Origin: an uncultured Alphaproteobacteria bacterium | GTDB taxonomy: Bacteria; Pseudomonadota; Alphaproteobacteria; Rs-D84 | NCBI GenBank assembly: GCA_944389385.1 | Contig: CALXMC010000005.1 | Location: 1 to 64,000, forward strand | Direction: 5' to 3' | DNA: 64,000 bases | Shown: positions 60,572-62,590 of the stretch, piece after piece | Layout: every line of letters begins with the position of its first letter | How positions within the stretch are numbered: position 1 is the stretch's first letter | Position numbers and translations under genes: made by a program | The notes under the pieces: generated by a model | What the model was told of the DNA's origin: nothing | What the model saw: the letters and a program-made list of their open reading frames with translations, nothing else | Database searches by the model: none

Positions 60572-60725
60572 TCAGAACTGCATTCGAAAACCTAATTTGA
60601 TTCCATCGCCATCGGCGGCAACTGTTATTTTATTGTCATATTTGCCAACCAACAGCCATGTAAAAAGTGCGCTGACCGCGGCACCGCCCAACAGAAAGTA
60701 TGGCAAAAGTTCTACGTTTTGACAT
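60572..60725 (-). pseudogene. Tiny membrane-protein gene with a +1 frameshift near its start
   Basis: An ATG at 60725 with AAAGGATAGG upstream opens a frame (MSKRRTF) that stops after 28 codons. The protein-like sequence lies in another frame: VELLPYFLLGGAAVSALF, a membrane helix, then VGKYDNKITVAADGDGIKLG and a stop at 60572. Removing one A from the run of four at 60717-60720 joins them into a 50-residue one-helix protein (MSNVELLPYF...). A frameshift mutation, a programmed shift or an assembly error are all possible. Confidence 0.45.
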
Positions 60726-60744
60726 ATTTTCCTATCCTTTGTGT

Positions 60745-60905
60745 AAAAAAAGACCACATATTTCAGTGGTCGGGAGTTAGAACAGTCAAACATTGATGAC
60801 CCTCGCCATCTTGCGAGTGGCGACATCCCGACCAGATCCGTCGGGACAATATTTCGTGGTATTTCAATGTTTTGGTGTTCTAGGCCAATCCACTGGATAT
60901 GTCGT
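60745..60905 (-). ncRNA. Structured RNA of unknown class, ending in a terminator
   Basis: On the minus strand about 160 nt fold into: a closing helix between ACATAT/CAGTGG at the 5' end and CCACTG/ATATGT at the 3' end; helix TAGAACA/TGTTCTA (plus strand 60778-60784 with 60876-60882); helix AAACATTGA/TCAATGTTT (60788-60796 with 60864-60872); hairpin TCCCGAC/GTCGGGA (60826-60846); and a small hairpin that can pair in two ways (60802-60822). It ends in GACCAC/GTGGTC plus T7 (60752-60771), which shares bases with the closing helix. A promoter TTGAAA-17-AATAAT can be placed with its -10 at 60910-60915. It lies in the leader of the 60572 gene. No known RNA family was recognised. Confidence 0.6.
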
Positions 60906-60934
60906 GCATATTATTGAATAATATTTTTATTTTT

Positions 60935-62590
60935 TCAATTGTTTTTAATCAGTGTGCGCGCCGTTGCCAATGATTCAGGTGTAATTTGCGCCCCACTTAT
61001 GATGCGTGCGATTTCGTTAATTCGGTCGTCGCCGTGAATTTCTGCAACGTCTGTTGTTGTCGTATCGTTCGCAGAATGTTTTGAAATTTTGAAATGTTTG
61101 TCTGCATATCCCGCAACCTGGGCCGAATGGGTTATGACCAATGCCTGGGACGATTTTGCCAATCTGTTTAATCGGTTGCCAACCGCCGATGCGGTTGCGC
61201 CACTGATGCCGGTATCTATTTCGTCAAATACAAATGTGTGCGCATTGCCGCCATCCGCCAATACCACGCGCAGCGCCAACATAAAACGCGCCAATTCGCC
61301 ACCAGATGCCGCGCGGTGCAATGGTGCGAATGGCATGCCTGGATTTGTTTTTATCATAAATACAACGTCGTCAATTCCGTGCGCGGATGGGGTTGCGTCT
61401 GTGCGCGATACAATAAAGTCGGCCGCGCCCAATTTCAGATCTGGCAATTCCGCCAAAATTTGTTTGCGTAACATTTCGCCCGCGGCAATGCGTGCAGACG
61501 ATAGCCCAGCGGCCGATTTTTCGAATTCTGATTTTTTGTTTGCCATATCGGCGGTTAATTTTTTTAATTCGGCGTCTGAATTTTCAATCGCGTTTAATTC
61601 AGCCGACATTTGTTTTAATTTTTCAGGCAATTCATCCGCAGAAACACGATGCTTGCGCGCGGCGGCGCGAATTGCGAACAATCTTTCTTCGATTTCGTCC
61701 AGTGTTGCTGTGTCAACATCGGTTGGTGTTAATTTTTCTGCCACATCTGATACGATTTGCGCGGCGTTGTATAATGCGTCAATTTGTTCAGAATATGGAT
61801 TTGGGTCGGTTTTTATGCGTTCCAAAATATGTGCGACCGAAAAAATTACAGATTCCAACGACGTGCCATGCGGGTTTAATTCCGCGGCTGCATCAGACAA
61901 TATGGCTGCGTCCTTTTCCGCGTTCATCATGGCGGTGCGTTTGGTTGACAACATTTCTTCTTCACCAATTTGAACGTTTAATGATTCCAATTCGCGCACG
62001 TTGTGTTCCAAAAATTCCCGTTCCGATGCCGATTTTTGCAACGTTTCACGCAATTCGTCCAATCGTTTTTGCGCGTTATAATATTCTTGATAGTTTTTAT
62101 TAACACATAAAAGCAACTGATTGTAATTTGTATTGTTTTTAATTCCGAATAAATCCAAAGATTCGCGGTGTGTTGCCGGATTTAACAGTGCGTGATTCGC
62201 AAATTGTCCGTGTATTTCAACCAGGTTGTCGCCGATTTGTTTTAATAACTTTATTGACACAGGTGTATCGTTTGCCCATGCACGACTTTTGCCGTCCGAC
62301 GACAATGTTCGGCGTAAAATTAACACGTCTTCGAATTCGATTCCATTTTCATCCAATAAAGATTTTAATTTGTCGTCAATCGAGTCAAATTCTGCAATGA
62401 CGGACGCAGTATCGCATCCATGACGCACCAGACCGGCGTCTGAACGCGCGCCCAATGCCAGCGCCAATGCGTCCATTAAAATACTTTTGCCCGCACCCGT
62501 TTCGCCCGTCAGTATATTCAGCCCCGCCCCGAATTCCAGATTCAGTTTTTCAATCAGTACTATGTTCGAAATGTATAACCGTGTCAGCAT
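60935..62590 (-). CDS. recN: DNA repair protein RecN
   Basis: SMC-like ATPase acting at double-strand breaks. 551 residues from the ATG at 62590: Walker A GETGAGKS (29-36), coiled-coil arms (about 150-350), ABC signature ASGGELARFMLALR, Walker B FVFDEIDTGISG, and VITHSAQVAGYAD. A promoter ends six bases before the ATG. Confidence 0.95.
   Translation of the reverse strand: MLTRLYISNIVLIEKLNLEFGAGLNILTGETGAGKSILMDALALALGARSDAGLVRHGCDTASVIAEFDSIDDKLKSLLDENGIEFEDVLILRRTLSSDGKSRAWANDTPVSIKLLKQIGDNLVEIHGQFANHALLNPATHRESLDLFGIKNNTNYNQLLLCVNKNYQEYYNAQKRLDELRETLQKSASEREFLEHNVRELESLNVQIGEEEMLSTKRTAMMNAEKDAAILSDAAAELNPHGTSLESVIFSVAHILERIKTDPNPYSEQIDALYNAAQIVSDVAEKLTPTDVDTATLDEIEERLFAIRAAARKHRVSADELPEKLKQMSAELNAIENSDAELKKLTADMANKKSEFEKSAAGLSSARIAAGEMLRKQILAELPDLKLGAADFIVSRTDATPSAHGIDDVVFMIKTNPGMPFAPLHRAASGGELARFMLALRVVLADGGNAHTFVFDEIDTGISGATASAVGNRLNRLAKSSQALVITHSAQVAGYADKHFKISKHSANDTTTTDVAEIHGDDRINEIARIISGAQITPESLATARTLIKNN

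Follow-up and report, generated by a model that had tools for sequence, protein, structure and literature searches.

Between xseA and recN, the minus strand of the 64,000-nucleotide stretch of DNA analysed here (the window) encodes a structured RNA whose parts have more than one possible pairing partner, and the locus raises the question of whether such an RNA is a switch on the gene behind it or a regulator in its own right. The first-pass annotation had allowed for both, a switch-type leader or a stand-alone regulatory RNA; the many copies of the RNA, with same-strand open reading frames (ORFs) directly downstream, favour the leader part of that proposal and disfavour the stand-alone part. 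We consider it probable that the RNA is a cis-acting 5' leader of about 160 nt, with its own promoter, a terminator before the ribosome-binding site and two exclusive folds that would control read-through. Most likely it is a transcription attenuator, a variant of the sRNA-Xcc1 superfamily that falls outside the Rfam family RF02221 by cut-off. Read 5' to 3', the leader is composed of a 5' strand, P2, P3a, J3/4, P4a, P4b, P5, P6, a short strand, CTCCCGACC and the terminator, and the parts of the window copy are located as follows.

60745-60903, minus strand: leader RNA, window copy, about 160 nt, between xseA and recN
60910-60938, minus strand: putative sigma70 promoter recognised in the sequence, -35 TTGAAA at 60938-60933, 17-nt spacer, -10 AATAAT at 60915-60910
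about GACAT (60903), minus strand: expected transcription start, placed from the putative promoter
60890-60903, minus strand: 5' strand, partner of either J3/4 (P1x) or the terminator loop and 3' arm (P1t)
60872-60888, minus strand: P2 hairpin TTGG/CCAA, loop TAGAACA at 60882-60876 forming the pseudoknot 5' strand
60864-60871, minus strand: P3a AACATTGA, partner of the P6 loop TCAATGTT at 60796-60789 (P3b)
60847-60863, minus strand: J3/4, alternative partner of the 5' strand by the partner-swap test
60840-60846, minus strand: P4a TCCCGAC, partner of P4b (GTCGGGA, 60832-60826)
60826-60833, minus strand: P4b GGTCGGGA, partner of P4a or the ALT 3' strand, and 5' end of the sRNA-Xcc1-like core
60803-60823, minus strand: P5 hairpin TCGCCA..TGGCGA, with a GCAA loop in the window copy and ATACAA..CCAAAG in other members, as in RF02221
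60785-60800, minus strand: P6 hairpin GTCA/TGAC, loop TCAATGTT at 60796-60789 (P3b)
60778-60784, minus strand: pseudoknot 3' strand TGTTCTA, partner of TAGAACA at 60882-60876
60768-60775, minus strand: ALT 3' strand TCCCGACC, partner of P4b, with four bases in common with the terminator 5' arm
60745-60771, minus strand: intrinsic terminator recognised in the sequence, GACCAC 60771-60766 / GTGGTC 60757-60752, then T7 at 60751-60745
60740-60729, minus strand: ribosome-binding site AAAGGATAGGAA ahead of the PAP2 gene remnant
60572-60725, minus strand: remnant of a PAP2 phosphatase gene with signal peptide, delimited by alignment to the intact L018 gene

All of the pairings quoted in the first-pass annotation (closing, long-range, inner hairpin, terminator and ACATAT/ATATGT) were located on this strand, ACATAT near the leader 5' end being complementary to ATATGT in the terminator. 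The helices it called nested do pair, and are refined here as the P2-loop and P6-loop pairings of a second fold; the second pairing it saw for the inner hairpin is that of P4b at 60833-60826 with the ALT 3' strand at 60775-60768. The structure goes far beyond chance: the fold reaches -62.2 kcal/mol, whereas 200 shuffled sequences give -38.8 +/- 4.1 (z -5.8) and not one is as stable. At the expected 5' end, 14 of 41 representatives have a TATAAT-like hexamer (no more than one mismatch) 6-8 nt before GACAT, an enrichment at that spacing. Rfam yielded no match beyond chance at the window locus at gathering or relaxed thresholds, even at E 10, and the known riboswitch and leader families were rejected on this basis, as was 6S RNA, RF00013 being without a match in the window's genome. 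An integron attC site was rejected as well: the copies are flanked by housekeeping genes of the chromosome (recN, leuS, xseA), and the covarying helices are those of a long RNA that has a terminator.

The window RNA belongs to a multi-copy family. A first BLASTN search found homologues in 13 genomes among the first 99 relatives, and covariance models were built from 14 sequences (R1) and from 63 (R2). At E<=1e-6 the RNA is present in 132 of the 156 genomes of the genus, which includes Candidatus Enterousia avistercoris (L019 = L205), with up to 16 copies per genome; the window's own genome holds 5 at that threshold and 10 at E<1e-3. Of 22 genera sampled from the order, 14 have the RNA by R1 at E<=0.01; R2 at E<=1e-4, run on 289 genomes across the class, places it in only 6 that lie outside the genus, a search that doubles as a negative control. 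Weak R1 matches (E 1e-4 to 1e-2) are excluded from our claims, and we regard pattern-scan matches in Micromonospora, Corallococcus, Planctomycetales and Acidiferrales as chance. The named hosts are mostly ruminant, horse, chicken or termite-gut MAGs.

Among these relatives, compensatory changes support every helix, and in each of two mutually exclusive pairs they support both alternatives. In a partner-swap test, the partner strands of each helix were exchanged among 42 representatives of <80% identity, and own pairing was compared with swapped pairing. The signal was strongest for P3, between P3a and the P6 loop (z 18.0, with double changes at all 8 pairs), and for the pseudoknot between the P2 loop and the strand after P6 (z 15.7), followed by the P6 and P2 hairpins (z 7.9 and 7.7), ALT, between P4b and CTCCCGACC (z 7.5), and P4 (z 4.2). 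Both partners of the 5' strand were likewise upheld, J3/4 in P1x with z 7.5 and the terminator in P1t with z 5.2 (0/5000 each), while three control segment pairs gave z of at most 0.4. Column counts agree: in P2-P5 plus terminator, 92.9% of cells are paired and 22 pairs have double changes (0/500 shuffles), P4 and the terminator being paired in 99.8% and 95.8% of cells across the family, and ALT has 5 pairs with double changes (0/500 shuffles). Moreover, triple changes in several members preserve P4 and ALT together, as in GGTTGGGATG with CCCAACC and CATCCCAACC, or in GGTCAGGA with TCCTGAC and TCCTGACC. Since the P6 and P2 hairpins and ALT all covary, a second fold exists, and a plain nested structure is ruled out as the whole story. 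The pairings are also copy-specific: when 40 copies from 16 genomes were compared with sister copies of the same genome, own pairing prevailed for the pseudoknot (z 5.9) and for P3 (z 5.1).

Downstream of the RNA, 60 of the 66 diverse loci have a same-strand ORF that begins no more than 40 nt away (median distance 21 nt), usually with a good ribosome-binding site. Pfam searches of 60 downstream proteins returned PLD-like (8) and PAP2 (7) domains, together with outer-membrane barrels, porins, surface antigen, the YadA anchor, and surface-glycan glycosyl-, methyl- and pyruvyl-transferases. In the window itself, the short membrane-protein frame (ORF 60572-60826) reported by the first-pass annotation exists, but it is no intact gene; it is a broken PAP2 remnant whose real start is at 60725. 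Alignment to L018 indicates that the first 34 bp and the last part are kept and 389 internal bp are deleted, with loss of the frame, whereas relatives carry an intact 180-aa PAP2 gene in the same recN-xseA interval (Pfam PAP2 2.4e-16 for that of L016). Because the PAP2 gene that it would control is broken, the window copy is probably either a relic or active as nothing more than a short RNA.

The RNA had been called unassigned, which is correct insofar as the window copy matches no Rfam family (RF02221 included, up to E 10), but its family proves to be a remote relative of RF02221 and is thus not wholly unassigned. The curated cut-off of RF02221 is 53 bits, which the window copy does not reach; six relatives match below it, at 48.1, 43.6, 42.3, 38.8, 33.4 and 33.2 bits, the best of them in the window's own genome. 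Three divergent copies in that genome match RF02221 over its full length (48.1, 42.3 and 38.8 bits), always at the same place and strand, and L128 and L123 can be aligned to the full model. The closing helix of RF02221 corresponds to ALT, its first hairpin (ATACAA..GAA) to P5 and its second to P6, and each of these three elements of the core covaries. On canonical RF02221 loci, the full-length R2 gave a single chance match only; therefore a further model, R3, was built solely from the core of the window leader family. R3 recovered 18 sites of RF02221, coinciding in position and strand (best E 1.1e-6), with no off-target match in 101 kb, and its sole match in the window is the leader RNA itself (core 60768-60833). 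At the level of sequence profiles, the leader family and RF02221 thus share only the core. P5 (alignments A3 and A7) occurs in two forms that interchange, a short stem with a GNRA cap and an extended ATACAA(Y)AGG..CCAAAG; a subgroup (L087, L105, L107, L108 and L116) keeps core and terminator and has a fixed TTATGATTTTTCTAAC strand, with a 5' domain that differs as aligned.

Canonical RF02221 members were found to possess a counterpart of the 5' element as well. Upstream of the 30 members examined lie a P2 hairpin and a P3a strand with complementarity to the core (z 5.9, 0/3000, against 101/3000 for a control further upstream), and Rfam therefore models only the 3' half of the RNA. The ribosome-binding-site region of these loci in turn mimics the 5' element and can likewise pair with the core (z 7.4), as in Aaphi23, where TCGAAAATAACAAACAGGAG stands against TCGAAACCTTACAAACAGCGG; in the window leader family the mimic signal is weak (z 3.1). 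A T-run terminator usually follows the 5' element in canonical loci, and so lies between 5' element and core, whereas it lies after the core in the window leader family, which further differs in its tight P4a-P4b hairpin, its many copies and its envelope targets instead of antirepressors. RF02221 occurs above cut-off in 35 of 299 Pseudomonadota genomes, and the genes behind it encode Bro-N, Rha, P22_AR_N and KilA-N antirepressors, SymE and others. In annotated phages, the next gene encodes an antirepressor or KilA-N protein in 4 of 4 cases, the RNA of VHML being below cut-off; the phage loci L228 (1786-1909), L229, L230 and L231 have the RNA directly 5' of such a gene, with the 5'-element mimic at the ribosome-binding site. 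Among plasmids, a BLASTN search with the RF02221 consensus turned up four matches, all weak and unannotated. Like the window leader family, sRNA-Xcc1, which occurs in Xanthomonas, integron cassettes and prophages, lies just upstream of a gene. It has been placed upstream of symE in integron cassettes (PMC12444791), and in a Xylella genome RF02221 has been listed close to isrK and C4 (PMC12189769).

How might such a leader operate? Two features point to attenuation: the conserved exclusive pairings involve an intrinsic terminator, and the RNA lies upstream of a same-strand coding region. The leader would be transcribed from its own promoter and end at the terminator just before the ribosome-binding site. 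In one fold, P4a would hold P4b and J3/4 the 5' strand, leaving the terminator free (OFF). In the other, P4b would pair with CTCCCGACC and close the three-way core (ALT, P5 and P6) known from sRNA-Xcc1, the 5' strand could pair with the terminator, and ALT and P1t would each break the terminator up (ON). The 5' element (P2 loop and P3a) would bind the target strand of the core, namely the P6 loop and the strand before ALT, of its own copy. The attenuator logic follows from P4b having a single partner at a time, P4a or CTCCCGACC, and from the use of terminator 5' arm and loop bases by ALT and P1t; the J3/4 and terminator pairings of the 5' strand cannot coexist either. At the level of sequence comparison, every helix, both alternatives, the placement before ORFs and the homology of the core to RF02221 are seen, while termination as the output and the roles of the two folds are what we infer from them. 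The exclusion between ALT and the terminator may be partial, because in many members no more than 2-4 bases are common to both. Which fold is ON and which is OFF is itself uncertain, because nested folding, in which pseudoknot energies are not counted, prefers P4 with P1t in the window copy (-59.7, against -54.9 for P4 with terminator and -46.4 for ALT alone).

Other explanations must be weighed against the attenuator. The sRNA-Xcc1 RNA is reportedly trans-acting, and it was detected as one RNA species about 100 nt long (88 nt by RACE); by extension, the RNA studied here could be a stand-alone trans-acting sRNA, with a terminator that merely ends it and an incidental gene behind. Its own putative promoter and its terminator fit this reading, as do the two copies with a degraded gene (window and L011) that retain a well-formed RNA, a finding we count against the leader. 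We nonetheless regard it as rather unlikely, given the same-strand ORF a median of 21 nt downstream over 66 diverse loci, the relatedness of the downstream gene classes, and conserved exclusive pairings with the terminator that are hard to explain in a plain sRNA. A metabolite-binding riboswitch with ALT, P5 and P6 as its predicted aptamer would account for a multi-copy leader with terminator and pseudoknots before functionally related envelope genes, and is nevertheless very improbable: few unpaired bases are conserved outside P5, the loops of the would-be pocket vary freely provided that pairing is kept, and no metabolite is shared by the targets of the canonical relatives, which are phage antirepressors and SymE.

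A closer analogy is provided by IsrK of the Salmonella Gifsy-1 prophage (RF01394), which has two isoforms, the read-through form encoding a phage antirepressor; like the window leader family it is a leader or small RNA with a terminator and alternative structures, though its short form binds in trans (PMC4825925). No sequence or profile match was found between IsrK and the window leader family. By analogy, the terminated short form of the present RNA might act in trans on its own or a paralogous read-through form, freeing translation or termination. In favour of such a dual function stand this two-isoform precedent, the mimicry at the ribosome-binding site of canonical leaders, the weaker third element in the window leader family and the copy-specific pairing. 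It appears quite unlikely all the same, for the mimic signal downstream is weak in the window leader family, which moreover has no terminator between its halves, so that 5' element and core are always one molecule. The C4 antisense RNA of phages P1 and P7 (RF01695; c4-2, RF02944) offers an analogy rather than a membership: there, too, two short complementary stretches, in an upstream RNA and a downstream target, would be involved with antirepressor genes. RF01695 had no match at the window RNA, at the RNAs of its relatives or at canonical RF02221 cores.

Returning to the attenuator, we give an even chance to a broader history, in which sRNA-Xcc1 would primarily be the 3' half of a widespread two-part leader whose 5' element, core and, in phages, ribosome-binding-site mimic compete as an antirepressor switch of temperate phages; this leader would have been taken over and multiplied in genome-reduced gut alphaproteobacteria as copy-specific transcription switches of envelope genes. 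A leader that works as proposed would offer a mechanism for RF02221, an Rfam family without known function that is seen here to hold only half of the RNA, and would connect the genes of prophages, integrons and hosts through a single leader RNA. It would also define a class of copy-specific bistable RNA switches in which both states are predictable and testable, and, for the host group of uncultured gut Alphaproteobacteria with genomes of about 1 Mb, would point to a regulatory layer over many envelope genes.

Two further variations were noted within the family. L009 carries, at about 1655-1720, a partial second leader 5' part (P2 and P3a) in tandem after the terminator of the first leader. 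Leaders of the PLD type (L043, L057, L064, L067 and L074) have one more hairpin, located after the promoter-like -10 and before GACAT, possibly a stabiliser of the 5' end.
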